Virus record (IMG/VR): IMGVR_UViG_3300042895_000198
Span: 1-64,000 of that record
Reading direction: 5' to 3' (one strand)
DNA from: a virus
DNA length: 64,000 nt
In this document: positions 5,234-57,746 of the stretch, one piece after another
How positions within the stretch are numbered: position 1 is the stretch's first letter
Layout: every line of letters begins with the position of its first letter
Notes under the pieces: generated by a model
Databases searched by the model: none
The model's input: only the letters and a program-made list of their open reading frames with translations
Told to the model about the DNA's origin: nothing
Translations under genes and position numbers: made by a program

Positions 5234-5416
5234 ATGGAAGTTCAAGATTTTATTAATAGTGTTGCCACAGGCAATGCATCTGAAGCAAAAGACACTTTGA
5301 ATGATTTGCTATCAGCACGAGCCTTTGATGCTTTGGCAGCAAAGAAAATTGAAATTGCTCAATCTTTGTTCAATGATAAGCAAGCAGAGACACCAGAAAC
5401 TACAGAAGCAGAATGA
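5234..5416 (+). CDS. 67: Prohead core protein, gp67-like
   Basis: This 60-residue acidic protein occupies the position of T4 gene 67 between portal and protease. Its sequence (MEVQDFINSVATGNASEAKD, then LLSARAFDALAAKKIEIAQSLF) follows the gp67 pattern of a short amphipathic start, a helix and a KIxIAxxLF segment with an acidic tail. T4 gp67 is an essential scaffold-core protein cleaved by gp21. I chose the ATG at 5234 because GGAG at 5223-5226 is correctly spaced; an in-frame ATG at 5222 overlaps the gp20 stop. The next gene overlaps by four bases. Confidence 0.7.
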   Translation: MEVQDFINSVATGNASEAKDTLNDLLSARAFDALAAKKIEIAQSLFNDKQAETPETTEAE

Positions 5417-6192
5417 AATCGTTAAACGAATTTAAGTCTATTGTTGAAGAAGAAAAGTCGGACTATTCCAAGTTCGATGTTTTAGTTCGTGCTGGTCTGG
5501 CCAATAAGGCACAGATGCAACGAATTCATGCCGTGTTGGATAAAATGAAAGAAGAAAGACCTACTTTCAATAATGCAGACCGCATGATTGTCCAAAACCT
5601 TTTCAATAAAATGGTAGACTTAATTTCGAATAACAAACAGATTAACCAACAAGCTCGCCGTTCAATTAAAGAAGTTACTGACGTAATTGACACGGCAGAC
5701 TTTAAGGTTAGTCCAAGTGGTCGTAAATTAAAAGCACACAAGGTTGAATTTGATACTGAAGTTAAAGAGTCTATTCAACTTGAAGGTGTAGATACACCAC
5801 GTGACCCTCCTGCTGTTCTTGTACTAAAGCGCAAATCTATTCGTATGTATCCAGACAATACTAGAATTGCCCTTTATTATAACAATACATTGGACAAATA
5901 CTTTTCGATCCCTTATGGACCAAAAATTGATGCACCAATCCAATCTGAAGAAACTCAGATTCAAGAATCAGTTATGGATGCTTTGCATAGAATTGTAAAG
6001 ACCAAACAACACGAACCAGTTCAATTTGCCGATGGTACAAAGATGAAAGTTGACCACTATACTGCGTCAGCAATTACTCAAGTACATAAAGCTTTGAACG
6101 ATGATAATAAAAAGAAGTATGAGTCGATGGTAAATAAGTCTAAAGAACATTTAGGCCGTGCTTCTGATTTTGCATTTAGGCATATGAAATGA
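5413..6192 (+). CDS. Head-region protein of unknown function, capsid-targeting-like N-terminus
   Basis: I recognise no named family with certainty. The 259-residue protein lies where T4 has gene 68 but is longer. Its N-terminus MKSLNEFKSIVEE fits the pattern seen in T4 internal head proteins and contains IVE, a possible gp21 cleavage site of the (L/I)xE type. Residues 20-100 are predicted helical (FDVLVRAGLANKAQMQRIHAVLDKM) and such a domain recurs next to portal genes of aquatic T4-like phages. The C-terminal half contains DALHRIVKTKQ and a Lys/His-rich end. It overlaps both neighbours, indicating coupled translation with the head genes. Confidence 0.6.
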   Translation: MKSLNEFKSIVEEEKSDYSKFDVLVRAGLANKAQMQRIHAVLDKMKEERPTFNNADRMIVQNLFNKMVDLISNNKQINQQARRSIKEVTDVIDTADFKVSPSGRKLKAHKVEFDTEVKESIQLEGVDTPRDPPAVLVLKRKSIRMYPDNTRIALYYNNTLDKYFSIPYGPKIDAPIQSEETQIQESVMDALHRIVKTKQHEPVQFADGTKMKVDHYTASAITQVHKALNDDNKKKYESMVNKSKEHLGRASDFAFRHMK

Positions 6193-6623
6193 CCTTTGTG
6201 GAATCTATTATACATAGAAAGTTGGATGAAGCAAGAGAAACAATTCATGCTCGTCTTAATGAAATCGTGTCTCAACGTCTTGAAGAAGCAAAGCGTTATA
6301 TTGCAGCCGACATGTTTGAAGAAGTTATTTTAGATGAAGCAAGTTCAAACATTATTAAAATGGGTAGAATTCAAAAGATTCGCCGTAGAATTAGAAGAAA
6401 TGCTAAAGGTCGTATTGTCGTTCAAAAGAATGTTAAACGTTCAGGCATTAAAGGTTACAGAATTTCGGGCAATACACTTAAACGTATATCTGCTACATCA
6501 CGCCTTCATAAAGCGAGAATGTTAAAGCGTTCTTGGAAAACAACACGTAAAGCTAAATTGCGCCGTTCATTGTTAAAAAGAAAAATGTCAATGCGTAGGC
6601 GCTCATCCATGGGAATAAAATAA
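6189..6623 (+). CDS. Very basic head-region protein (gp68 position)
   Basis: This 144-residue protein has two different halves. Residues 1-55 are an acidic helix (RLNEIVSQRLEEAKRYIAAD). Residues 57-144 are extremely rich in Arg and Lys with almost no acidic residues (IRRRIRRNAKGRIVV; SLLKRKMSMRRR). A basic tail of this type suits DNA or acidic scaffold binding inside the head. It sits between the gp67-like gene and the protease, like T4 gene 68. The sequence includes LDE and VILDE, which could be gp21 processing sites. Function is inferred from position and composition only. Confidence 0.6.
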   Translation: MTFVESIIHRKLDEARETIHARLNEIVSQRLEEAKRYIAADMFEEVILDEASSNIIKMGRIQKIRRRIRRNAKGRIVVQKNVKRSGIKGYRISGNTLKRISATSRLHKARMLKRSWKTTRKAKLRRSLLKRKMSMRRRSSMGIK

Positions 6624-6624
6624 A

Positions 6625-6981
6625 ATGGCACTAGAAGTTACAAACTCACTAAGAGGTCCATCTGTTATCAGATGCGTTGAACCTGGAACATACACTATCA
6701 ATCTTACAGATTTGAGAAAAAATACAGTTATAGAAACAGTAACATCTGCCGATATTAAGCGTGTTACATGGTCAACGAATGGCAGTATTACTATTGTTCG
6801 TAATATTACTCCAGTCTTGTCACTACAAGGTTCTGGTGAAATGAGATTTGATGAATTTGGCCACTCGATTGCAAATAACAATACAGCTAATGTTGTTGTT
6901 ACGATTGCAACTGGCGGCACTTTGGTTATGGAATTAAGTAAGCAAGCTACATTCTCTGTAGATGTTAATACTGGAGCATAA
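6625..6981 (+). CDS. Small probable virion protein, unknown
   Basis: This 118-residue protein is predicted to be almost all beta strand, with alternating hydrophobic residues (VIRCVEPGTYTINLTDL; ANVVVTIATGGTLVMEL). It starts two bases after the previous stop and lies inside the head gene cluster, so a decoration or structural role is plausible. I recognise no family. Its end lies four bases before the protease start and carries that gene's GGAG ribosome binding site. Confidence 0.6.
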   Translation: MALEVTNSLRGPSVIRCVEPGTYTINLTDLRKNTVIETVTSADIKRVTWSTNGSITIVRNITPVLSLQGSGEMRFDEFGHSIANNNTANVVVTIATGGTLVMELSKQATFSVDVNTGA

Positions 6982-6985
6982 CCCA

Positions 6986-7636
6986 ATGAAATTAATTACC
7001 GAAACAATTGAAAGTGTTAAGTACCTATCAGAAGCTTCTGAGAATGGTAAAAAACACTTGTACATTGAAGGCACATTCCTAGTTGGCGATAAAGTAAATC
7101 GTAACAATAGAATGTATAAAATGAACACGTTACGTGAAGAAGTAAAGAGATATAATGAAGAATACATTAAAACAAACCGTGCTTTAGGTGAACTAGGCCA
7201 CCCTGACACACCATCTATTAACTTAGAACGTGTGTCACATAAGATTGTGTCCTTAGATGAAGATGGCAACACCTTCTATGGTAAAGCATTAATTCTAGAA
7301 ACTCCTTACGGTCAAATCGTAAAGAATTTTATTGAGAACAATATTCAAGTTGGAGTGTCATCGAGAGCTATGGGTTCTGTTGTGCAAACAAGAGAAGGAT
7401 ACAACCTAGTTCAAGACGACCTTAAACTTGCCACGGCAGCTGACATTGTTGCCGACCCATCAGCCCCTGGCGCTTTCGTCAATGGTATTATGGAGAATAA
7501 AGAATGGATGTTTGTTGAAGGCCGTTTCGTAGAAATGGACTTTGATGATGCTAAAAAACAAATAAGAGCGGCTTCTTCCAAACAAATAGAGGAAGTTGCG
7601 CTAAAATTATTTGAAAATTACTTACGAAAACTTTAA
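6986..7636 (+). CDS. 21: Prohead protease (gp21)
   Basis: This is the serine protease of the T4 prohead family that cleaves scaffold and capsid proteins after (L/I)xE before DNA packaging, 216 residues (T4 gp21 is 212). The catalytic His lies in GELGHPD and the Ser in VGVSSRAMG; a third conserved block is ATAADIVADPSAPGAFV. I chose ATG 6986 over the upstream in-frame ATG 6962 because GGAG lies at 6974-6977 and the protein then starts MKLITETIESV, matching family N-termini. ITE at residues 4-6 is a possible self-processing site. Confidence 0.9.
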   Translation: MKLITETIESVKYLSEASENGKKHLYIEGTFLVGDKVNRNNRMYKMNTLREEVKRYNEEYIKTNRALGELGHPDTPSINLERVSHKIVSLDEDGNTFYGKALILETPYGQIVKNFIENNIQVGVSSRAMGSVVQTREGYNLVQDDLKLATAADIVADPSAPGAFVNGIMENKEWMFVEGRFVEMDFDDAKKQIRAASSKQIEEVALKLFENYLRKL

Positions 7637-7639
7637 TTT

Positions 7640-7647
7640 TATAAATA
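7640..7647 (+). promoter_or_regulatory. T4-type late promoter before gp22
   Basis: An exact TATAAATA box is followed by AAAGGAG about 15 nt later and by the scaffold ATG at 7670. Confidence 0.8.
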
Positions 7648-7669
7648 AGAAATCAAAAGGAGATTCCTA

Positions 7670-8668
7670 ATGGCAAACAGTAAACTAATGGAAGCCGCAG
7701 CCGATATTCTTGCAGGAAGCAAGAAGACAGCCTCAAGCATGCCAGCCCAAAAACTGCCTGGTGAGGTTCAAGACCTCGGTGGCCCAACTAATACAGATGC
7801 TCATCCAATGGGTGACTCTGAGAAGATTGATGCTACCAAAGGTGCTAAGAGCGCTACACCACCAGCTACAAAACCATCAGCAGCTTCTGCTGACACTCAG
7901 AACAAGCCAGTTGGTGGCAAAAAAACTATGAGTGAAGAAGAAATAACACATGACATGAATTCGTTGTTCTCAGATGACGATACCATTTCAGAAGATTTTA
8001 AATCCAAAGCTGCAACAATTTTTGAAGCTCGTGTCTTTGACCGTGTATCTCAAATTGAAGAAGAAACAGAAGAACGATATGCCGGCATGCTTGAAGAAGC
8101 AGTTGAGACTATCAAGGCCGACTTGACCGAAAAGGTTGATGACTACCTTTCTTATGTTGTTGAGCAATGGATGGCAGACAATGAAATTGCAGTTGAATCC
8201 GGTCTTCGTGCCGAATTGACTGAAGACTTCATTGGCGGCTTGAAGAATTTGTTCACAGAACATTACATCGATGTTCCTGCTGACAAAGTGGACCTAGTTG
8301 AAGAACTTTCTACTAAAGTGGAAGAACTAGAGTCTAAACTTAATGAAGAAATTGAAACAGGTATTCAATTGAAGAAATCGCTCATTGAATCCCATAAAGC
8401 AGAAATTGCACATGAAGTCTGTGATGGACTTGCAGCTACTCAAGCTGAAAAAGTAAAAGCACTTGCAGAGAGTGTTGATTTTTCTACAGAGGAAGAATAC
8501 AAAGAAAAGCTTGAGACAATCCGTGAGAACTATTTCCCATCTGGCACTAAAAAGGCTGATGTGAGAGACCTACATGAGCAAGTAGAAGATGGTAGCGAGA
8601 AACAAGTAACCGCTGCTGATCCATACGTTGCTTCTGTCATGCAAGCAATTTCGAAAACTAAAATTTAA
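7670..8668 (+). CDS. 22: Prohead scaffold protein (gp22)
   Basis: This is the main internal scaffold around which the head assembles; it is degraded by gp21. It is 332 residues (T4 gp22 is 269). The N-terminus MANSKLMEAAADILAG with LME is typical of gp22 and marks a protease site. Residues 10-80 are Ala/Pro/Lys-rich and disordered, residues 85-240 are acidic and strongly helical (VDLVEELSTKVEELESKLNEE), and the end carries DPYVASVMQAISK as in other gp22 proteins. A late promoter and AAGGAG precede it, and the capsid gene follows after 26 bases. Confidence 0.9.
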   Translation: MANSKLMEAAADILAGSKKTASSMPAQKLPGEVQDLGGPTNTDAHPMGDSEKIDATKGAKSATPPATKPSAASADTQNKPVGGKKTMSEEEITHDMNSLFSDDDTISEDFKSKAATIFEARVFDRVSQIEEETEERYAGMLEEAVETIKADLTEKVDDYLSYVVEQWMADNEIAVESGLRAELTEDFIGGLKNLFTEHYIDVPADKVDLVEELSTKVEELESKLNEEIETGIQLKKSLIESHKAEIAHEVCDGLAATQAEKVKALAESVDFSTEEEYKEKLETIRENYFPSGTKKADVRDLHEQVEDGSEKQVTAADPYVASVMQAISKTKI

Positions 8669-8694
8669 TTAAACAAATCCACAAGGAGAATTAT

Positions 8695-10035
8695 ATGTAT
8701 TTGTCAGAAAGTCTACAAAAGAAATGGGAAGGCGTACTGGAGCACCCAGACCTCCCAGCTATTAAAGATCCATACCGTAAGGCCGTTACTGCTGTCGTGC
8801 TTGAGAACCAAGCCGTTGAAATGCAGAAATCTGCTGGTATGTTGTATGAAACAGCACCAACGAACTCTATGGGTTCTACAAACGGTGGTTTCCAAGGCGG
8901 TTCAGCTGCTGCAGGTCCTGTTGCCGGTTTCGATCCAATCCTTATCAGCTTGGTTCGCCGTTCATTGCCTAACCTGATTGCTTATGATATCTGCGGCGTT
9001 CAGCCAATGACTGGACCTACAGGTCTTATCTTCGCAATGCGTACTAAGTATGCAGGTCAATCCGGTACTGAAGCCTTCTTCAACGAAGCTAACACTGGTT
9101 TCTCTGGTTTGGGTACCTCTGGTAACCAAGCATTTGCAGAAGGCACATTGCCAACAGAAATCTTCACAGGTAATGCCGCTGCTGTTGGTGCTATGTCAAC
9201 AGCTCGTGCTGAAGCCTTGGGTGATGGCGCTGCTGCTAACGCATTCCAAGAAATGGCATTCTCTATTGAGAAAGTTACTGTTACTGCAAAGACTCGTGCT
9301 TTGAAGGCAGAATACTCAATGGAACTTGCACAAGACTTGAAAGCAGTCCACGGTTTGGACGCAGAAACAGAATTGGCAAACATCTTGTCTTCTGAAATTC
9401 TTGCTGAAATTAACCGTGAAGTGGTTCGTACAGTTTATGCATCTGCTAAAATCGGTGCACAAGTTGGTACAACTACTGCTGGTGTGTTCAACCTTGACAC
9501 AGACTCTAATGGTCGTTGGATGGTCGAAAAAGTTAAAGGTTTGGCATTCCAAATCGAGCGTGAAGCTAATACTATTGCCAAGACTACTCGTAGAGGCAAA
9601 GGTAACATCATGATTTGTTCATCTGATGTTGCTTCCGCTTTGGCAATGGCTGGTATCCTTGATTATCAATCTGCTCTCAGCTCACAAGTTAGCTTGACAG
9701 TTGATGACACAGGTAACACATTCGCTGGTACCATCTTCGGTCGTATCAAGGTCTATATTGACCCATACTTCCCAGCTAACTTCTCTAGCGAATTCGCTGT
9801 TGTTGGTTACAAAGGTACTAATGCCTATGACGCTGGTCTGTTCTACTGCCCATACGTACCGTTGCAAATGGTTCGTGCAGTTGATACGGGTACATTCCAA
9901 CCAAAAATTGGTTTCAAAACTCGTTACGGATTGGTTGCAAACCCATTCGCAGAAGGTACTAACCAAGGTTTGGGTGCATTGAACACTCAAGCTAACAACT
10001 ACTACCGTGCATTCCGCATCAGCAACTTGATGTAA
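8695..10035 (+). CDS. 23: Major capsid protein precursor (gp23)
   Basis: This is the hexamer-forming HK97-fold shell protein, 446 residues in precursor form (T4 gp23 is 521). The propeptide is probably removed after LYE at residue 52, giving a mature N-terminus TAPTNS; this site fits the gp21 (L/I)xE rule. Family blocks include PIIISLVRR-like PILISLVRRSLPNLIAYD, GPTGLIFAMR, LAQDLKAVHGLDAE and the C-terminal MVRAVDTGTFQPKIGFKTR region. A strong terminator follows, consistent with the highest-expressed gene. AAGGAG at 8680-8685 region serves as ribosome binding site. Confidence 0.95.
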   Translation: MYLSESLQKKWEGVLEHPDLPAIKDPYRKAVTAVVLENQAVEMQKSAGMLYETAPTNSMGSTNGGFQGGSAAAGPVAGFDPILISLVRRSLPNLIAYDICGVQPMTGPTGLIFAMRTKYAGQSGTEAFFNEANTGFSGLGTSGNQAFAEGTLPTEIFTGNAAAVGAMSTARAEALGDGAAANAFQEMAFSIEKVTVTAKTRALKAEYSMELAQDLKAVHGLDAETELANILSSEILAEINREVVRTVYASAKIGAQVGTTTAGVFNLDTDSNGRWMVEKVKGLAFQIEREANTIAKTTRRGKGNIMICSSDVASALAMAGILDYQSALSSQVSLTVDDTGNTFAGTIFGRIKVYIDPYFPANFSSEFAVVGYKGTNAYDAGLFYCPYVPLQMVRAVDTGTFQPKIGFKTRYGLVANPFAEGTNQGLGALNTQANNYYRAFRISNLM

Positions 10036-43377: not shown

Positions 43378-44610
43378 ATGAAATTCACACAATTTTTAAC
43401 CGAATCAAAAAAAGAAGGTGCTAACCTTCACCTAGAACACATTGAAGATGAAGTTCTGAATCGTGGTGTATCTGGTGTTAGAGATGCAATCAACTTCTTG
43501 CAATCTCTCCGTGACATGCTCGCAGGCCATTCTAATTCTAAAGTGAACCTAACTACAAAATGGGATGGTGCACCTGCTATTTTCTGTGGTATTAATCCAG
43601 ACAATGGCAAATTCTTTGTTGGTACTAAAGGTGTATTCAATGCCAATCCTAAGTTAAACTACACCGATGCAGACATTGATGCAAACCATGCTTCAGAAGG
43701 ATTAAACTCCAAACTTAAAGTTGCATTACGTTATTTGCCAAAATTAGGCATTAAGGGTGTATTACAAGGCGACATGATGTTTGCTAAAGGTGATATACAG
43801 AACAAAACAATTGATGGTGAAGACTACATCACATTTCAACCAAATACAATTGTCTATGCTGTGCCTGCTGATTCTAAGTTAGCACAAATGATGTTGGCTG
43901 CTCAGATGGGTGTGGTGTTTCATACTTCATATACAGGTAAAACATTCTCTGATATGAAAGCCTCATTCAACATTGATATTAAGAATCTTACAACAACCAA
44001 AGATGTTTGGTTCCGTGATGCTTACTTTGTTGATGCTTCAGGCACTGCCTCATTTACCGAAGAAGAAACAAGAACTGTCACATCTATTCTGTCTCAAGCA
44101 GGCAGAACTTTTCAAACAATCAATTCATTAAACTTGAATCGTATTTCAACAAGTGATGTTATTCTTACATACATTAAAACATTCAATAACACCAAAGTGC
44201 GTGAAGGTCTGAAGATTAAAGACACAAGAGCTCACACACTAGAGTTGATTCGTTGGGTTGAGGCTAAATTGAACAAAGACATTATTGATGCCAAGAAGGA
44301 AGAAACCAGACAGAAACGTATCAAAGAGAAAACAGAGATTATGCGTTTCTTCCGTAATGCGTCAACAGACTTGAAAAACATTTTTGATTTGATGAATCAG
44401 TTGGTTGATGTTAAGAATATGATTGTTAAGAAGTTGCAACAAATGAAACAAGTAACCAATACATTCTTACGTACTGATGATGGTTTCAAAGTTACCAATC
44501 CAGAAGGTTTTGTGGCAGTTGATAGGTTAAAAGGTAATGCTGTTAAGTTGATTGATAGACTGGAATTTGCTCATGCTAACTTTAATGCCGCTAAGAATTG
44601 GAGCAAGTAA
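43378..44610 (+). CDS. DUF6267-like protein with a ligase-type KxDG motif and capsid-targeting-like N-terminus
   Basis: The 410-residue protein begins MKFTQFLTESKKE, with LTE matching the gp21 cleavage rule. Residues 58-66 are LTTKWDGAPA: K61-x-D-G is the signature of the nucleotidyl-lysine in polynucleotide ligases and capping enzymes. FFVGTKGVFN follows where motif Ia/III strands are expected, and EGFVAVDRLKGNAVKL near residues 382-397 resembles motifs IV-V. The C-terminal third is helical and basic. The domain number DUF6267 is from memory. A ligase-fold enzyme is my inference; catalytic activity is not shown. Confidence 0.6.
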   Translation: MKFTQFLTESKKEGANLHLEHIEDEVLNRGVSGVRDAINFLQSLRDMLAGHSNSKVNLTTKWDGAPAIFCGINPDNGKFFVGTKGVFNANPKLNYTDADIDANHASEGLNSKLKVALRYLPKLGIKGVLQGDMMFAKGDIQNKTIDGEDYITFQPNTIVYAVPADSKLAQMMLAAQMGVVFHTSYTGKTFSDMKASFNIDIKNLTTTKDVWFRDAYFVDASGTASFTEEETRTVTSILSQAGRTFQTINSLNLNRISTSDVILTYIKTFNNTKVREGLKIKDTRAHTLELIRWVEAKLNKDIIDAKKEETRQKRIKEKTEIMRFFRNASTDLKNIFDLMNQLVDVKNMIVKKLQQMKQVTNTFLRTDDGFKVTNPEGFVAVDRLKGNAVKLIDRLEFAHANFNAAKNWSK

Positions 44611-44889: not shown

Positions 44890-45225
44890 ATGAAATTTAC
44901 CGAATTCGATGAACTAATGGAAGCAGCCTATGCAGGCAATATCGGTATCATGGAACTGATTAAGTTTAAAAGTAATGCTAGTCCAGAACAGAAAAAACAG
45001 TTTGATGACCATGTGAAGAACAAGCGCCACAAAGACGCATGGAAGATGGTCCAAGACGTTACAGGAGTCAAACTACATAAGAGTGTGCATGAAGAAATTA
45101 AACCTGATATCCTGCCTAAATCTGGCGCAGGTGCATGGGGAACAGATACTCTGGCAAACAACTATAAAAAAGGCACGCCAGGCCAAAACATTACCTCATT
45201 TAAAGACTACAAGACAACTAAGTAA
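44890..45225 (+). CDS. Small protein with capsid-targeting-like N-terminus
   Basis: This 111-residue protein starts MKFTEFDELMEAAYAG, with LME followed by Ala as a possible gp21 cleavage site. The middle is helical and charged (ASPEQKKQFDDHVKNKRHKDAWKM) and the end is Lys/Gly-rich. I recognise no family. It starts one base after the previous stop. It closes the group that begins at 42045 and is followed by the second glycan island. Confidence 0.6.
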   Translation: MKFTEFDELMEAAYAGNIGIMELIKFKSNASPEQKKQFDDHVKNKRHKDAWKMVQDVTGVKLHKSVHEEIKPDILPKSGAGAWGTDTLANNYKKGTPGQNITSFKDYKTTK

Positions 45226-46782: not shown

Positions 46783-46783
46783 T

Positions 46784-48207: not shown

Positions 48208-48896
48208 TTGTACCGGCCGCAGGCCTATCAACTAGGTTTCCAAATATGAAACCAAAATATCTTCTGTTAGATAAAAATGACAGAATGATGTTAGCTAAAT
48301 CCATCAACCCATATTTGTCTGAGGGTCACAATGTTACTGTTGGTATTCTTCAGGCACACATTGACAAATACGATTCTTACAACCTTTTAAAGGCTCAGTT
48401 TGGTGATAAGATTAACATTATTGTTATTCCAAAAGTAACAAGTGGTCCTGCTGATACTGTTTATCAGATTATTAAGGCTGCAAATATACCTGAAGACTCT
48501 GAGTTTTTGATTAAAGACTGTGATAGTTACTTCACACATACCAATACACCTGGCAACTATGTCTGTATTAGTAGAATTGCAAACCATTTCATGTTAAGTA
48601 ATTTGGCTGCCAAGAGTTTCGTGGTTTCAAATGAACAAGGCATTATTACTGATATCATTGAGAAGAAAGTGGTATCTGATAAGTTTTGTGTTGGTGGTTA
48701 TAAGTTTGAATCCATCAAACTCTATGTTGATACATATGAGAAATTAAATAGTAATGTACATAATGAAATTTTTGTTTCACACATCATACAAGAATGCCTA
48801 ATGAACGATTGTATCTTCTTTGAGAAGGATGTACAAGGTTATAATGATGTTGGAACAATAGAAGATTGGCGAAAATATAATGAGTCTCTTACCTGA
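48198..48896 (+). CDS. Sugar-phosphate nucleotidyltransferase
   Basis: This 232-residue protein is a nucleotidyltransferase of the RmlA/GalU type. The signature is IVPAAGLSTRFPNMKPKYLL (GxGxRxxxxxxxxPK). The metal Asp lies in FLIKDCDSYF, followed by GVISKI-like NYVCISRI and a C-terminal DVGTIEDW typical of the group. It makes NDP-sugar or CDP-alcohol from the product of a kinase such as 47467 or the GHMP kinase at 15679. It overlaps both neighbours. Confidence 0.85.
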   Translation: MEVIVPAAGLSTRFPNMKPKYLLLDKNDRMMLAKSINPYLSEGHNVTVGILQAHIDKYDSYNLLKAQFGDKINIIVIPKVTSGPADTVYQIIKAANIPEDSEFLIKDCDSYFTHTNTPGNYVCISRIANHFMLSNLAAKSFVVSNEQGIITDIIEKKVVSDKFCVGGYKFESIKLYVDTYEKLNSNVHNEIFVSHIIQECLMNDCIFFEKDVQGYNDVGTIEDWRKYNESLT

Positions 48897-49590
48897 TAAA
48901 AACCTAATCATTGTCACATCGGCATTGGCACCAAACATAGGTGTTATTCCAAATGAAGACAGATATAAACAAACGATTGATTCGTTGGTGTCTCTACGTA
49001 AACACTTTCCAAATGATATCATTTTATTTACTGATGGTTCACCAAATGAAGTTGACCAAAAATGGTTAGAAAACATTTCAAACCATGCCGACATTATGGC
49101 AGTGTGGCACCAAGACAAAGATGTGAACCACTATGCAAGCGGTGGTATGAAAAGTCAGGCTGAACTTGTGTTGTTAATGAAAACAATTAATGTGTTGTAC
49201 AACAATCCAGACTTGATGAGTATGATGCATAGTGTTAAACGTATCTTTAAATACTCGGCACGTACAGTATTGCTTGATGAGTTTGATTTAAAAGAGTATG
49301 ATGGTCTATTTGGAAAGTATGTGTTTAAGAAGGCCATTCCATCTTGGATGCCTGATGAAGCTAAGTTGATGTTAACAGACCACTTGTACATCACTAGGAT
49401 GTATTCATTGTGCCCATCATTGGTGAAGGATTACATGGCAACTTTGATGGCTTGTTTAGAAAATACTAATCAAGGAATGGATACAGAACACGCACACCAC
49501 ATGAACATAGATAAACGATACGTGATTGAATTTGATAAACTGCATTGTTCTGGCATAATGGCCAGTACAGGCGCAACTGAGGTATATTAA
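48880..49590 (+). CDS. Putative glycan-synthesis protein, unknown
   Basis: This 236-residue protein begins with a strand NLIIVTSALAPNIGV and has DIILFTDGSPNEVD and YDGLFGKYVFKKAIPSWM blocks. The layout is like a sugar-transferase Rossmann domain, but I see no certain DxD motif. WLENISNHADIMAVWHQDKD and the TTEHAHHMN-like DTEHAHHMNIDKRY block are family-specific. It lies in the glycan island between nucleotidyltransferase and methyltransferase genes and overlaps the former by 17 bases. Confidence 0.55.
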   Translation: MSLLPDKNLIIVTSALAPNIGVIPNEDRYKQTIDSLVSLRKHFPNDIILFTDGSPNEVDQKWLENISNHADIMAVWHQDKDVNHYASGGMKSQAELVLLMKTINVLYNNPDLMSMMHSVKRIFKYSARTVLLDEFDLKEYDGLFGKYVFKKAIPSWMPDEAKLMLTDHLYITRMYSLCPSLVKDYMATLMACLENTNQGMDTEHAHHMNIDKRYVIEFDKLHCSGIMASTGATEVY

Positions 49591-49591
49591 T

Positions 49592-50275
49592 ATGGATTTA
49601 AAAGAATACTGGCTAAACAACAACGGCAAAAAGATTACAAAGTGGACTCATTACTTTTGGGTATATGACCGACACTTTGCGGCACTACGAGATAAACCAA
49701 TTAAGATGTTGGAGATTGGTGTATTGAATGGTGGTTCATTGGAAATGTGGAAGAAATACTTCCATCCTGATAGTACAATCGTAGGTATTGATATTACACC
49801 TAGTTGTAAAGACTTTGAAGATGCTGAGAATAATGTTCATGTCCGCATCGGTGACCAATCTGATCCAGAATTCTTACAAAGCCTTGTAGATGAATTTGGT
49901 GAGTTTGATTTGGTTTTGGATGATGGCAGTCACCATGTTGACCATGTGAACAAAACATTCCAGTCCTTGTATCCAAAGATTGCTAAAGATGGTGTTTACT
50001 TCATTGAAGATACACATGCGGCATATTGGAATTCTCATGGAGGTTCTATTGACCATCCAGATTCAATCAACAATGTGGCCAAGACCATGATTGATAAGTT
50101 GAATGCAGACCACACCAAAGGTCAAATTGCACCAGATTTCTTCACACATGAAACAAAGTGCATGTCGTGTTATGATAGTATTGTGGTGTTTGAGCGTGGT
50201 AATGTGGGTGCTAAAATTCCACAAGAGTATGGTGGACCAAAATCTGATGAGGTTTTGATTATCAGAACTCACTAA
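49592..50275 (+). CDS. Class I SAM-dependent methyltransferase
   Basis: This 227-residue protein has the SAM-binding glycine motif KMLEIGVLNGGSLEMW, the acidic ribose ligand in TIVGIDITPSCKD, and LVLDDGSHHVDHVNKTF, the metal/catalytic block of CmcI- and macrocin-type O-methyltransferases. GVYFIEDTHAAYW follows as in that group. It would methylate a sugar hydroxyl. It closes the glycan island; a pair of CTAAATA boxes at its end leads into the next late group. Confidence 0.85.
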   Translation: MDLKEYWLNNNGKKITKWTHYFWVYDRHFAALRDKPIKMLEIGVLNGGSLEMWKKYFHPDSTIVGIDITPSCKDFEDAENNVHVRIGDQSDPEFLQSLVDEFGEFDLVLDDGSHHVDHVNKTFQSLYPKIAKDGVYFIEDTHAAYWNSHGGSIDHPDSINNVAKTMIDKLNADHTKGQIAPDFFTHETKCMSCYDSIVVFERGNVGAKIPQEYGGPKSDEVLIIRTH

Positions 50276-50315: not shown

Positions 50316-52502
50316 ATGAAATTTAGAGAATTTATTACTGAGAATAAAGAGAAACATGCGGTCATGGCGTTTGGCCGTATGAATCCACCTACAACCGGAC
50401 ATGAAGTCTTGGTCAATAAGGTTAAATCGGTTGCAAAACAAGTTGGTGGTTCCCATCACATCATTCTGTCTCATTCACAAGATGCCGCTAAGAATCCTCT
50501 TACTGCGGCACAAAAAGTAAAACATGCCAAAAGGTTCTTTCCAGATACAAACATATCTGTTGCAACCAAAGAAGAACCAAACTTCCTAACACAAGCAGCC
50601 AAGTTACACAAACAAGGTGTAACACATCTACACATGGTCGCAGGCGCTGACCGTACCGCAGAGTACCACAAACTGTTGCACAAATACAACGGGACACATG
50701 AAGGTGCTCTTTTCAACTTCAAAAAGATAACTGTACATAACGCAGGTGAACGTGACCCTGATGCTGAAGGTACAGAAGGCATGTCCGCTTCAAAGATGCG
50801 TAAACATGCAGGCTCTGGTAATTTTGATGACTTTAAACAAGGCATTCCAAAACATGTGCCAGAACACCATGCGAAAGAATTATTCCGTGATGTTCGTAAA
50901 GGCATGAGCATTAAAGAGTCTATTGACCTTAACGAAGAATTTGAAATTCTTTTGGAAGGCGTACACGACCAATCCATCTTCAAAGCTATCTTCTTAGCAG
51001 GTGGTCCTGGTTCTGGTAAAGATTATGTGTTAGACAATACACTTGATGGTCAAGGTTTAACAGAAATTAATTCAGACAAGGCACTTGAGTTCTTAATGGA
51101 CAAAGAAGGTCTTGATAAGATGATGCCTGTTGGCGAAACAGAGAAACGTGACTTTGTTCGTGGTCGTGCAAAGAACATTACAGAGTTGCGTCAACAACTT
51201 GCACTATTAGGTCGCAATGGTTTGATTATCAATGGTACAGGTGATGATGTAGCTAAAACAAAACGCATCAAAGACCAATTAGAAAAACTTGGTTACGATA
51301 CTGCCATGTTGTTGGTGAATACAAGAGATGATATCTCCGCTCAAAGAAATATTGAACGTGGCCAACGTGGTGGTCGTGCGGTACCAGAACCAATTCGTAA
51401 AGAAAAGTGGGATAGTGTACAGTTAGCACGTACTGAATATGCTCAAATGTTTGGTGATAAGTATAAAGAATTTGATAACTCTGAAGACTTGAGGCAAGCT
51501 GATCCTGAAACAGTTAAGGCAAAGAAGTCTGAGCTGTTACAATTATATACAGGTTTTAAAGAATTCGTTTCTACACCACCACAGTCAGAAGAATCTAAAT
51601 TTTGGGTTGCTAATGAGTTGGATAAGAAAGACACTTTACCAGTTCAAACTGATGGTGCTGAACAACTGCCTGCGTCTGATGATGCAACTGGTGAAGAAGC
51701 TAGAAAACTCGGTCTACAATACTATGGTTTTGGTAGATATGGCAGAAATGGTAAAGTTACACATCGTTCTGTACATGGTCAATTGGTTTTGGTCAATAAA
51801 GAAGAACCAAAACAACCAAAGATTCCTGTGAGTAGTTCATCACAGAAACCTGTTAAACCGGTTGTTAAAGAATCATCTGATTTGATATATGAAGATGGTT
51901 TGTTACGAGACAAGGCCGGTAAATTGCGTGTCTTCATGCTTAGAAATACTGCAGCAAAAGAAGCACACACTAAAAATGGAACCATTATTAAACACAATAA
52001 TGGTTATGTTGTTAAACTTAATGGAGAAAATAAAAATGCTAAATTATCTGAAGAAATTATTTCAAACCAAACCAAAAGAACAAGCTCCTTTGGTGAGTCC
52101 AGTTCTGGAAGAAATCGTAGTACCGGTGCCAGTGATAGAACCAACACCGGAACCAGTGCCAGTTCCAGTACAGGAAGTTGTTGTGGAACCAGCACCTGCA
52201 CCTGTGACACCAAGCCAACCACCGAAGAAACAACCCGTAGCAAAATCACACTTGCAGAAATCCGCACCCGCCAAAAAGAAAAAGTAATTGAGTCTATCAA
52301 TAATGGTGAATCTGGTCTTTCGATGGCTGCATCTGGTGAGAACCTTGGCCGTGATACAACAAGAATTAAGACACTAAAGAAACCATTAGAAGAACTGACT
52401 GGCGATGAAACAACCATGAGTATCGGTGACCAAAAAGAAGGCGAACTGAAACGAATTGGTATTAATCTTAAAACATTTAAATCTAAAAAGGTTATAGGAT
52501 GA
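50316..52502 (+). CDS. Nucleotidyltransferase / P-loop fusion with capsid-targeting-like N-terminus
   Basis: The 728-residue protein starts MKFREFITENKEK, with ITE as a possible gp21 site. Residues 17-165 form a cytidylyltransferase-like domain: FGRMNPPTTGHE (TxGH motif) and GMSASKMRK (SxSxxR-like second motif), as in NMN/FAD-type adenylyltransferases. Residues 220-400 form a P-loop domain with LAGGPGSGKDY at 227-237 and a later NGTGDDVAKTKR block, like zeta-toxin or polynucleotide kinases. Residues 540-640 are low complexity, unusually Ser/Thr/Cys-rich, and overlap a second open frame. The C-terminal 90 residues look folded again. The substrate is unknown. Confidence 0.72.
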   Translation: MKFREFITENKEKHAVMAFGRMNPPTTGHEVLVNKVKSVAKQVGGSHHIILSHSQDAAKNPLTAAQKVKHAKRFFPDTNISVATKEEPNFLTQAAKLHKQGVTHLHMVAGADRTAEYHKLLHKYNGTHEGALFNFKKITVHNAGERDPDAEGTEGMSASKMRKHAGSGNFDDFKQGIPKHVPEHHAKELFRDVRKGMSIKESIDLNEEFEILLEGVHDQSIFKAIFLAGGPGSGKDYVLDNTLDGQGLTEINSDKALEFLMDKEGLDKMMPVGETEKRDFVRGRAKNITELRQQLALLGRNGLIINGTGDDVAKTKRIKDQLEKLGYDTAMLLVNTRDDISAQRNIERGQRGGRAVPEPIRKEKWDSVQLARTEYAQMFGDKYKEFDNSEDLRQADPETVKAKKSELLQLYTGFKEFVSTPPQSEESKFWVANELDKKDTLPVQTDGAEQLPASDDATGEEARKLGLQYYGFGRYGRNGKVTHRSVHGQLVLVNKEEPKQPKIPVSSSSQKPVKPVVKESSDLIYEDGLLRDKAGKLRVFMLRNTAAKEAHTKNGTIIKHNNGYVVKLNGENKNAKLSEEIISNQTKRTSSFGESSSGRNRSTGASDRTNTGTSASSSTGSCCGTSTCTCDTKPTTEETTRSKITLAEIRTRQKEKVIESINNGESGLSMAASGENLGRDTTRIKTLKKPLEELTGDETTMSIGDQKEGELKRIGINLKTFKSKKVIG
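52036..52287 (+). CDS. Possible nested gene: Pro/Val-rich small protein in an alternative frame
   Basis: An 83-codon frame lies wholly inside the nucleotidyltransferase/P-loop gene in the +1 frame. It starts MLNYLKKLFQTKPKEQ, with GGAG at 52023-52026 nine bases upstream, has a PVPVIEPTPEPVPVPVQE repeat region and ends in a Lys-rich tail. Its codons are those usual in this genome (cca, gta, gaa), whereas the main frame here needs many acc, agt and tgc codons. This favours real coding in this frame, either as a nested gene or because the main reading frame is shifted twice. Confidence 0.45.
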   Translation: MLNYLKKLFQTKPKEQAPLVSPVLEEIVVPVPVIEPTPEPVPVPVQEVVVEPAPAPVTPSQPPKKQPVAKSHLQKSAPAKKKK

Positions 52503-52792
52503 AATCATTTAAAGCATTCATAACAGAAACGCCTGCTTGGACACGTAAAGAGGGCAAGAACCCTGAAGGTGGTTTAAACCGCAAGGGTATTGAATCTTAT
52601 CGCCGTGAAAATCCAGGTTCTAAACTATCGATGGCAGTTACAACTAAGCCATCAAAATTGAAGCCTGGTTCTAAGGCCGCAAATCGTAGAAAATCATTCT
52701 GTGCTCGTATGGGCGGCATGGAAGGCCCAATGAAAAAACCTAATGGTGAACCAACTCGCAAAGCCCTTGCACTCAAAAAATGGAATTGCTAA
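52499..52792 (+). CDS. DUF6321-like small basic protein with capsid-targeting-like N-terminus
   Basis: This 97-residue basic protein begins MKSFKAFITETPAW, with ITE as a possible gp21 site. The rest (WTRKEGKNPEGGLNRKGIES, then GSKAANRRKSFCARMGGMEG and GEPTRKALALKKWNC) is a compact Gly/Lys/Arg-rich domain of the kind named DUF6321 in phages. Two Cys (SFCARM and the final NC) could bind metal. It overlaps the upstream gene by four bases. A head-internal, DNA-binding role is plausible from its charge and N-terminus. Confidence 0.65.
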   Translation: MKSFKAFITETPAWTRKEGKNPEGGLNRKGIESYRRENPGSKLSMAVTTKPSKLKPGSKAANRRKSFCARMGGMEGPMKKPNGEPTRKALALKKWNC

Positions 52793-53395: not shown

Positions 53396-53424
53396 TTTAA
53401 TAAAAACAAAAACAGGAGAAACTC

Positions 53425-54966
53425 ATGTATTCAGATAACAAACAAATTCGTGATGTAGCAGATGTTGCTGCACGAATCATGGCTGGTTTACCACCACTTG
53501 AAGAAAAATTGCATCCAAATCAACAAAAGATTGATGTGGTTGACGATGAAAAGATTGATGGTAAAGATTTTGCCAAACTTCGTAAGATGAAGAAGGAAGA
53601 AATCGAGATTGAAGAAGAAAGTCATCAATCTAAGACTACAATGAAACACATTCCAAATCCAACACCTGCACAAAAACAAGCAGCTAAAGATATTAAACCC
53701 GGCGTTGGCGGTTATCGTGACCGTATTGATATGCTTAAAAGTGCCGGCGTTAAAGAGGAAGTTGAAGCAATCGATGAAGTTAAGATGGCTGATTTGCCAT
53801 CAACTAAAGTTCAAGGTCGTGCATATGGTTCATCTAAACCAGAAGCAAGTGCATTTGATGTACTAAAAGGACCAAAAGATAAAGAATTGAAATCTATTGA
53901 GTCTGAGAAGAAGAAAAAGAAAATGTCTGAAATGGTTGCCACATATAAAGATGGCGGCATGAAGGCATTCTTTGAGTCTATTGAGAAAGAGGAAATGATT
54001 TCTGAAGAACCTGATTCTGCTCAATTTGCAAAAGAATTGGAAGACCAAAAGAAACGTGCAGCTGGTACTAAACCACAAGCTGAAGTTGCTAAACCATCCG
54101 TTCAAGCAGTTCAACAAGAAAGAATTGAAATTACCGATGAAATGATTTTTGAAGTTCTTGAAAATGCTGGTATTGATTTTGAATCATTGAGTGATGATGA
54201 ATTGCAAATAGCTGCAAATGAGGCATATGAAGTTCTTCATGAAATTTCAACAAAGACTTTAGCTAAAGCCGCTAGTGCTGCTTCTGACCCTGATGCAGAC
54301 TATCATTATGGTAAGTCACACGACCCGCAAAAGTTTGCAGACCATGCTAAAAAGACTAAAGATGCAAAATCAGCAGCTGCTGTTCAAGGTGCCGCTGATG
54401 CGAAAGGCCACTATACAAGACCAGGGCATAGTCTTGGGTCCTATGATAAACTTGCACACAGAACTCCTGCTCGTGTGACTGGTGTTGGAAAAGCAAATAA
54501 ACAAGATGTTAACAAATTAAAAAAGAGTATAAGTCTAAATGCTGAAGCAACTGAACAAGACATTTACGTTATCGATGCAGATTTGGCTAATGGTGTAGAT
54601 GCTGTTAACATTGAAGAACGTACATTGACTGCCGGTGAGACAAAGAAGAAAGAAGAAATTGTTAAATCTATGAAAAAAGGTTTGGCAGGTTTCAAAGAGC
54701 GTTATGGTGACCGTGCTAAGAATGTCATGTATGCAACCGCCACTAAAAATGCCATGAAAGAAGAAAAAGAAGACCATCATCAAAAAGGTTACGACCATGT
54801 GCGTGAGCCTATTTCTGATGAACCATATCTCGATAATGCTCGTGTAAGATTTAACGAATTAAAAAAACAAAATCCTCATAAAAAAGGATCTCAAGAGCAC
54901 AAAGATTGGCATTCTGGAGCATCAGCTGCATATGAAGAACATAAAGACATATTAAGAGGCAAATAA
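53425..54966 (+). CDS. Lys/Glu-rich probable head-internal or virion protein
   Basis: This 513-residue protein is highly charged and mostly disordered or helical. Recognisable pieces are IPNPTPAQKQAAKDIKPGVGG, an acidic helix EITDEMIFEVLENAGIDFESL, the repeat-like EISTKTLAKAASAASDPDAD, and ERTLTAGETKKKEEIVKSMKKGLAGFKERYG followed by RAKNVMYATATKNAMKE. The last block recurs in many phage proteins of this kind. AGGAG precedes the ATG at 53425. It shares the (L)xE(L/I)S..TL repeat with the next protein, so the two probably interact or work in the same place. Confidence 0.6.
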   Translation: MYSDNKQIRDVADVAARIMAGLPPLEEKLHPNQQKIDVVDDEKIDGKDFAKLRKMKKEEIEIEEESHQSKTTMKHIPNPTPAQKQAAKDIKPGVGGYRDRIDMLKSAGVKEEVEAIDEVKMADLPSTKVQGRAYGSSKPEASAFDVLKGPKDKELKSIESEKKKKKMSEMVATYKDGGMKAFFESIEKEEMISEEPDSAQFAKELEDQKKRAAGTKPQAEVAKPSVQAVQQERIEITDEMIFEVLENAGIDFESLSDDELQIAANEAYEVLHEISTKTLAKAASAASDPDADYHYGKSHDPQKFADHAKKTKDAKSAAAVQGAADAKGHYTRPGHSLGSYDKLAHRTPARVTGVGKANKQDVNKLKKSISLNAEATEQDIYVIDADLANGVDAVNIEERTLTAGETKKKEEIVKSMKKGLAGFKERYGDRAKNVMYATATKNAMKEEKEDHHQKGYDHVREPISDEPYLDNARVRFNELKKQNPHKKGSQEHKDWHSGASAAYEEHKDILRGK

Positions 54967-56964
54967 ATGAAAACGTGGTCTGAGTTTCTTACTTTACGTG
55001 AAAGGTGTTGGCCTGGTTACAAATCTGTGCCAGGTAAAAAAGCATATTCACCTGGTTCTTGCGTAAAAGAATCTCCTACTATTGAAGAAGATTTGCGTAA
55101 ATGGTTTAGTAAAACGGATCCAAAAGGTGGTTGGAAAAGGATCAATAGTAAGGGTGAAGCAATTGGCCCTTGTGCAAGAGAACCTGGTGAACCTAAGCCT
55201 AAGTGTATGTCTAACGAAAAGAGAGCTTCTTTAAGTAAAAAAGAAAGAGCATCTGCCGTTGCGTCTAAAAGAAAACATGACCCTAATCCTGAAAGAAAGG
55301 GTCCACCAATAAATGTGTCTAACTTTGGAAAAGGAAAGATAAGCGAAGATATGGAAAACTTAAACGAAAAAAATGTACCAACAAGTCCAGAAAAATGGGC
55401 TCAGGCAAAAGCACAGGCTAAATCTAAGTTTGATGTTTACCCTTCTGCTTATGCCAATGGTTGGGCTGCAAAGAAATATAAAGCAATGGGTGGCGGTTGG
55501 AAATCAGTCAATGAAGTTAAAGAAGTTGGAGATGATCCAACTGGTGATATCCCACCTGATAATCTTGTAAGAAAAGGCACTAAGGTTGTTGCTAAGCAGA
55601 CGCAATTTGAAGAAACAGAGATGCTTGATGAACTATCTAACAATTTGTTATCTCGTTACAAATCTGCTGCTACTAAACAATCTTCAAGTCTTGGTAAAGA
55701 AATGCAATCTGATTCCAGTAAGACCAAAAAGAATACAGAACTACAGAACAAGAGGTTTTCAGGTACTATGAAAGCAACCACTAAACAATTTGCTAACGAT
55801 ATGAAAAACGAAGCTAAGGATCCTGGTGAATATGACCAAGAAGGTGACATGGCCATGACACAATTGCGTAGTATTATTTACCACGCACAAGAGTTGCATG
55901 ACCAATTAGATAAGGATGACAATCTTCCAGAGTGGGTTCAGTCTAAGATTACTTTAGCGCAAGATTATATGCAAACTGCCCATGATTACATGTACTCACA
56001 GAAGAATGTAACAGAAGAAGTTGAATTGACTGAAGGTCGTCCATCACAACGCCATCCATTGGAAGGCCATGAGTATCACAAAAAATCTGATGAGGCTTTG
56101 GTTCACATTGCTAAAGATGCACATGCAGCCGCTGAAGCAATGAAGTCACACAATCCAACTGCTGAGAACAAGTATCGTGACCAAGCCAATGATTCTGCAA
56201 CAGTAAGACACTATCGTAAGACACATGGTATGGCTGATTGGTACAAAAAGAAGTATGGTCACATAAATGAAAGTGATGCATACGATAAAGATGTTAAACC
56301 TTCTGATAAACCACATGATAAAGAAGCCGCTGCAAAGCGTGCTAAAATTGCCGCAGTAATGGCAAGAAAGAAAATGGCTAAAGAAGAAGTTGAACAATTG
56401 GATGAGTTGTCACCTAGTACCTTACAGAGTTACAAAGTTGCTGGCCACAAGAAGTATGATAGTATTAGAAATAATACTGATGCTGATTCGATGGCTAAGA
56501 AATCTAAATTGGAAAAAGGTATTAAAACTGCTCATGCCAAGCAATTTCCATCTAAACCTGCAGCACCTGCACCAAAGAAAGACCCTAATAGTCGTGGTTA
56601 CGAACAAGGTCGTTATATGGGCGACAGCGTTGAACATGATGAATCATTAATAGAGGGTGAAAGTTGGAAGGTAGATACAGGTTGGAAAAAATCTAAGTCG
56701 GATGAAGTTACAGATAAGTCTGGTGCAAAACATACAGCAATGTCTAGAGCAAAACATTTGGCCAAAATGGCTGCAAAGAAAAATGCCAATCCAACTAAGT
56801 CAATGCGTGAAGATGCAGAACCTGTTGAGAAAGAACCTGAAGAAGCACCAAAGAAAAGTCGTAAGGCTCAAATTGTTAAAGATGCTAAGAAATCTAAAAC
56901 CGCATCAGCTGATAAGTTTCAATCGGAACCAGAATTAGGTTCCACTATCACTAAAAATTATTGA
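54967..56964 (+). CDS. DUF5872-like probable virion protein with repeats and capsid-targeting-like N-terminus
   Basis: This 665-residue basic protein begins MKTWSEFLTLRERCWPGY, with LRE near the start as a possible gp21 site. Residues 14-32 and 58-80 have paired Cys (CWPGY...SPGSC and GPCAREPGEPKPKC) followed by KRASLSKKERASAVASKRK. SPEKWAQAKAQAKSKFDVYP followed by SAYANGWAAKKYKAMGGGW fits DUF5872. Two later repeats read LDELSNNLLSRYKSAATKQ (from 55624) and LDELSPSTLQSYKVAGHKK (from 56398). The rest is Lys-rich and helical. A head-internal DNA-associated role is likely. Confidence 0.62.
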   Translation: MKTWSEFLTLRERCWPGYKSVPGKKAYSPGSCVKESPTIEEDLRKWFSKTDPKGGWKRINSKGEAIGPCAREPGEPKPKCMSNEKRASLSKKERASAVASKRKHDPNPERKGPPINVSNFGKGKISEDMENLNEKNVPTSPEKWAQAKAQAKSKFDVYPSAYANGWAAKKYKAMGGGWKSVNEVKEVGDDPTGDIPPDNLVRKGTKVVAKQTQFEETEMLDELSNNLLSRYKSAATKQSSSLGKEMQSDSSKTKKNTELQNKRFSGTMKATTKQFANDMKNEAKDPGEYDQEGDMAMTQLRSIIYHAQELHDQLDKDDNLPEWVQSKITLAQDYMQTAHDYMYSQKNVTEEVELTEGRPSQRHPLEGHEYHKKSDEALVHIAKDAHAAAEAMKSHNPTAENKYRDQANDSATVRHYRKTHGMADWYKKKYGHINESDAYDKDVKPSDKPHDKEAAAKRAKIAAVMARKKMAKEEVEQLDELSPSTLQSYKVAGHKKYDSIRNNTDADSMAKKSKLEKGIKTAHAKQFPSKPAAPAPKKDPNSRGYEQGRYMGDSVEHDESLIEGESWKVDTGWKKSKSDEVTDKSGAKHTAMSRAKHLAKMAAKKNANPTKSMREDAEPVEKEPEEAPKKSRKAQIVKDAKKSKTASADKFQSEPELGSTITKNY

Positions 56965-56976
56965 GTGGTTGACAGG

Positions 56977-56984
56977 TATAAATA
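56977..56984 (+). promoter_or_regulatory. T4-type late promoter before 57016
   Basis: An exact TATAAATA box stands 31 nt before the ATG at 57016, with AGGAG at 57006-57010. Spacing is the same as at gp18. Confidence 0.8.
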
Positions 56985-57015
56985 AACAATCAAATCAGAC
57001 AAATAGGAGAACAAT

Positions 57016-57369
57016 ATGTCTTTATGGGGAAATTTAGATGCCGCTAACAATGCGCCAAAGTTTGCTGGCACTGGCGGTATCGGCTTAACAGCCAACACAC
57101 AACAATTATTTTCAAACACAACATTTGCTACAACAAGCACTTCTTTAGGTATAGCAGGCCAAGCAACTGGTGTCTTTGGCATTAGTGTTACAGAAACAGC
57201 CAACACAGGCGGCGGCAGAGCCAACACAGCTGGCGCTCATGCTGGTTGGGTAATGCGTAAAGAAGGCACTGGCGGTCGTGCTGGTCGTATTCAAACAGAA
57301 ACATTGGTTGCTATGGGCTCAATGACTGGTGACTTTGCAACTGCAAACACCACTTATCCAGGTATCTAA
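57016..57369 (+). CDS. Small Gly/Ala/Thr-rich virion protein
   Basis: This 117-residue protein begins MSLWGNLDAANNAPKFAGTG and carries SVTETANTGGGRANTAGAHA followed by GWVMRKEGTGGRAGRIQTET, a pattern common to small late proteins in aquatic T4-like phages that are found in virions. It has its own exact late promoter, consistent with a structural role in quantity. The precise location (head decoration or neck) is unknown. Its last base is the first base of the next start codon. Confidence 0.7.
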   Translation: MSLWGNLDAANNAPKFAGTGGIGLTANTQQLFSNTTFATTSTSLGIAGQATGVFGISVTETANTGGGRANTAGAHAGWVMRKEGTGGRAGRIQTETLVAMGSMTGDFATANTTYPGI

Positions 57370-57746
57370 TGCGATTCTCTGAATATATCCGTGAGATGGA
57401 AATTGGTGCGGTCTCAGGGCCTGCACCAACACCAGCACTCATGGATACAAATTTAGATAGTCTGAATAAGCGTTTGGATTATGATACTGATGAAAAGTTT
57501 TTATCTCCTGAGTCTGGTATACAAAGGATTCGTAGAGTGTTGCACTTGTATGGTTATGACATGCCAGCACTTTACGATGCCGATCCAGAAGGAGATGAGG
57601 TGGTACTCGACCTAGATACGGATTTAGGCGTGTACATTTTATATACTCTCACCGATGATAATGATTATGAGTTTTATGCTGAGATTGGCCATGAAAGTCG
57701 TATGCAAGAGCTTTTATCGGATGAGGGAGAACCAGAAGAAGAATAA
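57369..57746 (+). CDS. Acidic protein with capsid-targeting-like N-terminus, unknown
   Basis: This 125-residue acidic protein starts MRFSEYIREMEIGAV, with IRE fitting the gp21 cleavage rule. The rest is Asp/Glu-rich with a VVLDLDTDLGVYILYTL beta region. I recognise no family. It is coupled to the small virion protein by a one-base overlap and is followed directly by the 57747 gene. Confidence 0.6.
   Translation: MRFSEYIREMEIGAVSGPAPTPALMDTNLDSLNKRLDYDTDEKFLSPESGIQRIRRVLHLYGYDMPALYDADPEGDEVVLDLDTDLGVYILYTLTDDNDYEFYAEIGHESRMQELLSDEGEPEEE

Follow-up and report, generated by a model that had tools for sequence, protein, structure and literature searches.

In phage T4, about ten N-terminal residues direct internal proteins into the prohead; residues 4 and 7 matter for targeting, residues 8 and 10 for processing. 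Cleavage by the prohead protease gp21 takes place behind L/I-x-E, and targeting needs no more than ten residues of IPIII (PMC9026906). The giant phages phiKZ and SPN3US likewise package head proteins that are processed by a gp21-like protease (PMC9026906, PMC5694885), and a cytidylyltransferase/NMNAT has been reported from the virions of the cyanomyoviruses S-SM1 (PMC3037559), S-SCSM1 (PMC9602691), S-CREM2 (Table 3 of PMC10665884) and S-SZBM1 (Table 1 of PMC9146016), as well as from those of S-CBWM1, a non-T4 cyanomyovirus (PMC10665884). Here we describe a 64,000-nucleotide stretch (hereafter the window) of IMG/VR record IMGVR_UViG_3300042895_000198, a 73.6 kb viral contig of T4-like type, in which seven genes, named by their start positions (5413, 43378, 44890, 50316, 52499, 54967 and 57369), begin with short N-termini of this kind (Table 1). 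These N-termini are, in our judgement, probably capsid-targeting propeptides of the T4 kind, processed by gp21, on proteins that are packaged in the head.

Like T4 IPI, IPII, IPIII and Alt, the window proteins combine an N-terminal tag of about ten residues containing L/I-x-E with a gp21 homologue encoded in the same genome. Unlike the T4 internal proteins, the putative cargo comprises an NMNAT-like/kinase fusion, a ligase-like DUF6267 protein, a DUF6321 protein and multi-module proteins, and the motif also occurs internally, between modules. A second likeness is to the cyanomyovirus virion NMNAT, which has a homologous domain and a tagged N-terminus; in the window, however, this domain is fused to a zeta-toxin-like kinase through an LLE junction. 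The giant phages differ too: several SPN3US propeptides exceed 100 residues, and only that of gp45 (20 residues) is comparable to the 9–12 residues seen here (PMC5694885), while the phiKZ protease cuts after S/A-x-E rather than L/I-x-E (PMC9026906). Among the papers listed in literature searches, as judged by titles and the beginnings of abstracts, none tied cyanophage virion enzymes to capsid-targeting sequences, and only one review in the literature searched (PMC9026906) combines the terms capsid targeting sequence, T4-like and cyanophage. The text of the S-CREM2 paper (PMC10665884) makes no mention of target, propeptide, gp21, N-terminus or cleavage, and a search for DUF6267 or DUF6321 found no paper.

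All seven open reading frames (ORFs) read and begin as a sequence-only reading of this DNA had quoted them. Among the 77 plus-strand genes that we drew up from the window ORFs, a loose pattern written from that reading matches exactly these seven; shuffling residues 2–16 (2000 shuffles) yields a mean of 0.18 matches and a maximum of 2, a figure that is descriptive, since these same seven had served to shape the pattern. We also set a strict T4-like pattern, M[KR]x(0-1)[FYWLIM]xx[FYWLIM][LIVMF]xE, after S-CREM2 gp136 and gp154 and S-SZBM1_140, _191 and _192 had been seen, and before the remaining S-CREM2 proteins were. Four of the 77 genes match it (43378, 50316, 52499 and 57369), against a mean of 0.05 and at most 2 in the shuffles, so that N-termini of 9–12 residues with hydrophobic positions and L/I-x-E number four of the seven by the strict pattern and all seven by the loose one.

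The strict tag is also restricted to certain families in related phages. We examined 1092 distinct ORFs from 102 related loci, which were fetched with two of the tagged families as bait and sample every tagged family except 5413. Of the 127 homologues belonging to these six families, 44 carry the strict tag (DUF6267, 21/76; NMNAT-kinase, 12/17; 57369, 5/8; 54967, 3/9; DUF6321, 2/5; 44890, 1/12), whereas the 211 homologues of other window genes, the gp41 helicase, gp61 primase, thyX and uvsX among them, all lack it. The motif search in related genomes that the sequence-only reading had proposed, which asked whether the motif is equally common in early genes, thus came out in its favour. The tag was further seen on eight of 754 ORFs without a match. 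Two tagged ORFs have HAD-phosphatase-like starts (locus L155, from 2801, DIDDTL; L025:2089-2859, DIDETLF), perhaps another packaged enzyme.

The product of gene 50316 links these N-termini to published virions. Its TxGH motif and P-loop, from which an enzyme had been predicted, were borne out: the TxGH nucleotidyltransferase domain matches the cytidyltransferase family phrog_3041 and also phrog_395 (E=1.8e-46), with PF01467 under the Pfam cut-off (17.9 versus 21), and the P-loop part scores 38.2 bits against a cut-off of 22.3 for Zeta_toxin, a match that we read as kinase-like, with no toxin activity implied. The cytidylyltransferases found in virions are all tagged (MKKFSAFLNE in S-SM1, MKSFLQFLKE in S-SCSM1, MKNFSSFLTE in S-CREM2 and MRFRQFIIE in S-SZBM1), and these reports of 50316 homologues, all from virion proteomes of four relatives, suggest that 50316 itself may be present in the mature head. 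In S-CRM01 the cytidylyltransferase begins MKLFNQFFKE and the kinase MISFDQFLSE, the latter being a virion protein as cited in PMC10665884. For S-PM2, by contrast, a previous virion study as cited in PMC3037559 failed to detect the cytidylyltransferase. In the S-PM2 record used here, which is that of a spontaneous deletion mutant, it is fused to DUF6267 in a protein of 591 residues (S-PM2d138, L212:3989-5764) that has neither a tag nor an LxE junction.

In the S-CREM2 proteome, four of the 52 detected proteins have the strict tag, compared with none of the 167 that went undetected (Fisher p=0.0029). The four are gp6 (SAM lyase, PF23780), gp13, gp14 (APH/ChoK kinase) and gp154 (cytidylyltransferase); of these, only gp154 was already known to us when the pattern was set, as was the further protein gp136. 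The paper places 24 of the detected proteins in its 'structural' class and 28 outside it, and all four tagged ones belong to the 28. Pooled over S-CREM2, S-SZBM1 and S-SCSM1, the tag is on six of 130 virion proteins versus three of 559 others (p=0.0021, or 0.0024 by stratified permutation); the three tagged proteins that were not detected have lengths of 105–165 residues. As a separate observation, the Cas9-annotated S-CREM2 virion protein gp12 (L004:7704-10313; no Pfam match at E<=0.01) contains the motif at a distance of 18 residues from its start (LRFASFMAE-AAV), and the N-terminus of S-CRM01_128 (L124:6422-6973) resembles this (LSLDSFIKE-AAP).

Beyond the sequence-only reading, we found internal copies of the motif and the multi-module protein 53425. 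An [L/I]xE site precedes the kinase module both in fusions with the NMNAT-like domain and where the kinase stands at the head of a separate gene; Melnitz (MKTFAELQE-GVYD) and HTVC008M (MIPFILKE-GLYD) show the latter arrangement. With an earlier anchor on post-site residues only, P1 was E and P3 was L/I in 23/23 contexts, and P2 took nine different residues. The recurrence of the site before fused and free kinases suggests head-packaged polyproteins that would be cut by gp21. The maturation region of the major capsid protein gp23 appears to obey the same L-x-E rule in four clade members (LYE-TAPT in the window, LTE-AAPT in S-SZBM1, LLTE-APT in S-CREM2 and LSE-AAPT in Melnitz), where gp23 would presumably be cleaved.

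Other modules behave similarly. DLRKWF follows an N-terminal tag in locus L027 (MKTFNSFVSE-DLRKWF) and an internal site in the window (TIEE-DLRKWF); its 14 distinct contexts comprise seven with [L/I]xE, six with [VMF]xE and one with another E, and a looser anchor finds E before the module in 14/15. The CWPGYK module that follows the 54967 N-terminus in the window follows MKTFKQHLDE, MKNFKSFFAE and MKTFKSFFAE in relatives, and the 33 CWxGY contexts divide into 17 with [L/I]xE, 11 with [VMF]xE and five with no E. For DUF6321 (63 contexts) the corresponding numbers are 32 and 11, with three showing another E and 17, all of the K-, GGS- or Met-start type, none near the module. In DSL-LC04 the YPSAYA module is untagged. 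The anchors skip diverged copies, such as the cyanophage WPSAYASG copies, which fail the YPSAYA anchor, and the SLHDWF copy of S-CREM2 gp160, which lies outside its anchor and has no E before it. Module-bearing proteins occur in published virions (S-CREM2 gp137 and gp160, S-SZBM1_139 and S-SCSM1_29), and gp21 would be expected to cut their window counterparts at the module junctions within the head. The multi-module protein S-SZBM1_194 (L002:13252-15375) contains a full tag inside the protein (EGFITYREFIAE-GNR). We tried the density of [L/I]xE sites as evidence for polyproteins and discarded it: neither 50316 nor 53425 shows it, while gp46 (16 versus 9.3, P=0.009) and 40894 (9 versus 4.3, P=0.020) do have an excess, and for this reason junction position, not density, is used here.

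A number of observations weigh against gp21-processed targeting propeptides. By the shuffle test, 50316 and 53425 contain no excess of [L/I]xE sites. The cytidylyltransferases of P-HM1, S-CAM1, HTVC008M and S-PM2 are untagged despite gp21 in the genome, and a proper tag is missing from DUF6267 of S-SZBM1, S-CRM01, P-HM1 and S-CAM1, from that of S-SM1, which has IETE, and from the S-PM2 fusion described above, whose junction also lacks LxE. Two endolysins detected in S-CREM2, non-structural according to its authors, are untagged, and when any second residue is allowed the S-CREM2 result weakens to 5/52 versus 3/167 (p=0.020). Taken alone, S-SZBM1, for which 188 of 218 genes were examined, shows no enrichment (1/30 detected versus 2/158 others, p=0.41; the sole tagged detected protein is the cytidylyltransferase), nor does S-SCSM1 (1/48 virion-labelled versus 1/234 others, counting the 48 in the record rather than the 45 stated in the paper). 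The S-CREM2 authors warn that abundant proteins may co-purify (PMC10665884). Finally, no cut N-terminus is reported in the literature covered.

The last point would also fit an N-terminal peptide that serves as a core- or scaffold-binding address and is never removed, with LxE forming part of a binding helix, and so would the conservation in relatives of the aromatic positions alongside LxE. At the kinase junction, however, P3 and P1 are fixed and P2 varies over nine residues, the logo of a gp21 site rather than a helix face, and the gp23 region follows the same rule; we regard an uncleaved address as unlikely. Less likely again, and in our view improbable, is that abundant cytoplasmic phage proteins stick to particles and that the motif has another role, in translation, stability or host interaction. 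The warning on co-purification and the lack of enrichment in S-SZBM1 or S-SCSM1 alone are in keeping with this, as is the position of the DUF6267 and cytidylyltransferase genes next to replication genes. Yet all four strict tags in S-CREM2 fall on detected proteins, the 167 undetected ones being free of them, the cytidylyltransferase recurs in four independent proteomes while the untagged S-PM2 one is reported undetected, and the motif is absent from all 211 homologues of other window genes. Sticking also fits poorly with the DUF6321 proteins of seven small-genome phages, which have no tag, and whose genomes have no PF03420 match, versus all ten T4-like records searched alongside; six of these phages were hand-picked from 60 listed rows, with most matches beginning past the tag region, and the seventh, Pag-Yong1, added as a fairer check, matches from residue 7 and lacks the tag too. 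Chance in an AT-rich genome with short, loosely defined N-terminal patterns, for which the shortness of the motif and the undetected S-CREM2 matches with any second residue (gp30, gp37 and gp175) might speak, is scarcely credible given the shuffled expectations and the conservation across diverged relatives, the latter refuting it for the set as a whole, with 5413 alone still possibly a chance match.

Processed capsid-targeting propeptides are thus the reading that we prefer, and the case for them differs among the genes. Four of them, 50316, 52499, 54967 and 43378, have a strong case, that of 43378 being drawn from sequence. For 44890 and 57369 it is moderate, and 5413 has a weak one, made up of a loose motif and a place among the head genes. 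The earlier claim that all seven are packaged in the head accordingly stands in part: tagged homologues are present in S-CREM2, S-SZBM1, S-SCSM1 and S-SM1 virions, while some orthologues are untagged and 5413 is weak.

The DUF6267 protein 43378 had been proposed as an enzyme from its KxDG motif, and conservation agrees: across 52 aligned sequences K61, D63 and G64 are invariant and W62 nearly so. E376, G377 and K390 are also invariant, and we take these to be the downstream EG and K motifs of the ligase superfamily. An AlphaFold model (mean pLDDT, its confidence score, 81.6; low confidence at residues 1–14) has no Foldseek match in the PDB at E<=0.001, and RNA/DNA ligases fill 48 of 50 rows of a VIA-align comparison, with middling Z scores (<=7.9) and many rows repeating one enzyme. 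Because of the invariant residues and the ligase-led structural list, 43378 is likely a ligase-like nucleotidyltransferase. In the same alignment the tag columns hold E at position 9 in 50 sequences, L/I at position 7 in 50, F/Y/L at position 3 in 47 and F/Y/L/I/M at the second aromatic position in 44. Of the best 80 DUF6267 loci, 72 have the HLEH anchor, and [LIVMF]xE lies within 10 residues before it in 69 of 71 untruncated ones; two relatives lack it and one more is truncated. As orthologues of S-CRM01, P-HM1, S-CAM1, S-SZBM1 and S-SM1 do without a proper tag, the DUF6267 tag is an add-on. The untagged S-SZBM1 protein is the only DUF6267 compared with a proteome, and it was not detected there. 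We also considered whether DUF6267 might be the virion protein T4-GC15, and rejected this because it is labelled T4-GC 71 in the records of P-HM1, S-SM1 and S-PM2.

Relatives of 44890 begin MRFKEYEELLE and MQFKEYEELLE, keeping LxE before A (LME or LLE). For DUF6321, a comparison of gp21 presence with tag context in 80 contigs proved uninformative since these contigs are fragments, only five of which contain gp21. Between the tagged genes 44890 and 50316, seven untagged genes (45243-50275) look like an inserted cassette; one of them begins MEVIVPAAGLSTRF, a start resembling that of a sugar nucleotidyltransferase.

The window also carries a set of head genes: portal gp20, gp21, scaffold gp22, gp23 and a prohead-core-like protein (gene 5222; phrog_1064, E=9.6e-5), with 5413 lying between gene 5222 and gp21. 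Translation of gp21 probably begins at the ATG at 6986 (MKLITETIE) rather than at 6962, in line with the start in three aligned relatives. By DNA, only Methylophilales phage Melnitz and cyanomyoviruses are near among named phages, covering 4% of the tested stretch (gp41). The late-promoter-like TATAAATA occurs in exact copies at 985, 7640, 10099 and 56977, just upstream of gp18, gp22, 10112 and 57016, the last of these genes being upstream of 57369; its enrichment was dropped as evidence, with a count of 4 versus 4.6 expected.

Table 1. Tags, tagged or multi-module proteins, internal sites and head maturation genes in the window.
Feature	Position	Strand	Basis
Tag-like, weak, MKSLNEFKSIVE	5413..5448	+	loose motif only
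gp21 prohead protease	6962..7636	+	PF03420 E=4.8e-37; phrog_207 E=8.5e-76
gp22 scaffold, 13 [L/I]xE sites	7670..8668	+	phrog_237 E=3.3e-81; shuffled expectation 5.2
Probable gp23 maturation site LYE before TAPT	8842..8850	+	alignment with S-SZBM1, S-CREM2, Melnitz
Tag MKFTQFLTE of DUF6267 protein	43378..43404	+	strict motif
DUF6267 protein, ligase-like nucleotidyltransferase (KxDG)	43378..44610	+	PF19782 E=2.3e-113
Tag-like MKFTEFDELME	44890..44922	+	loose motif
Tag MKFREFITE of NMNAT-like/kinase protein	50316..50342	+	strict motif
Cytidylyltransferase/NMNAT-like domain fused to zeta-toxin-like P-loop kinase	50316..52502	+	phrog_3041 E=5.5e-67; PF06414 E=1.3e-9
Internal LLE site directly before kinase module GVHD	50949..50957	+	[L/I]xE in 24/24 distinct contexts
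Tag MKSFKAFITE of DUF6321 protein	52499..52528	+	strict motif
DUF6321 protein, small, basic	52499..52792	+	PF19846 E=3.6e-22
Multi-module protein, no N-terminal tag, 7 [L/I]xE sites	53425..54966	+	count not above shuffled, P=0.24
Tag-like MKTWSEFLTLRE before CWPGYK module	54967..55002	+	loose motif
Multi-module protein (CWPGYK, DLRKWF, YPSAYANGW, others), 10 [L/I]xE sites	54967..56964	+	3.9 shuffled, P=0.003
Internal IEE site before DLRKWF	55081..55089	+	E precedes module in 14/14 distinct contexts
Internal LNE site before KNVPTSP...YPSAYANGW	55360..55368	+	[L/I]xE 25/26, [VMF]xE 1/26 distinct contexts
Tag MRFSEYIRE	57369..57395	+	strict motif

How such tags might work can be sketched from T4. 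The aromatic or hydrophobic pair would dock the protein onto the prohead core, gp21 would cut after (L/I)xE, and the mature proteins would remain bound up with the DNA, probably accompanying it into the host. Within the head, gp21 probably splits the fused proteins (NMNAT-kinase and 54967) into separate enzymes and small basic peptides. If T4 IPI is a guide, the cargo may be active within minutes of infection. One may speculate that NAD restoration or RNA repair against host defence would be a fitting task for a set made up of a kinase, an NMNAT-like enzyme and a ligase-like one. Whether T4-like aquatic phages more generally load gp21-processed polyproteins strikes us as an evenly balanced question: in that case modules would shuffle between genes with their own targeting or cleavage motif, and one packaged precursor would break up within the capsid into a number of enzymes along with small basic peptides. 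Its products, among them the NMNAT-like enzyme, the kinase and the ligase-like enzyme, would reach the cell as infection begins, perhaps to counter host defences that deplete NAD or cut RNA.

If processed propeptides of this kind are indeed at work, a sequence rule could single out the hypothetical proteins that aquatic T4-like phages carry in their heads and inject, and the tags would form a natural set for studying how cargo is loaded into T4-like capsids. They would offer a possible reason why cytidylyltransferases and kinases recur in virion proteomes, and the purpose of cyanophage virion enzymes would become directly testable.

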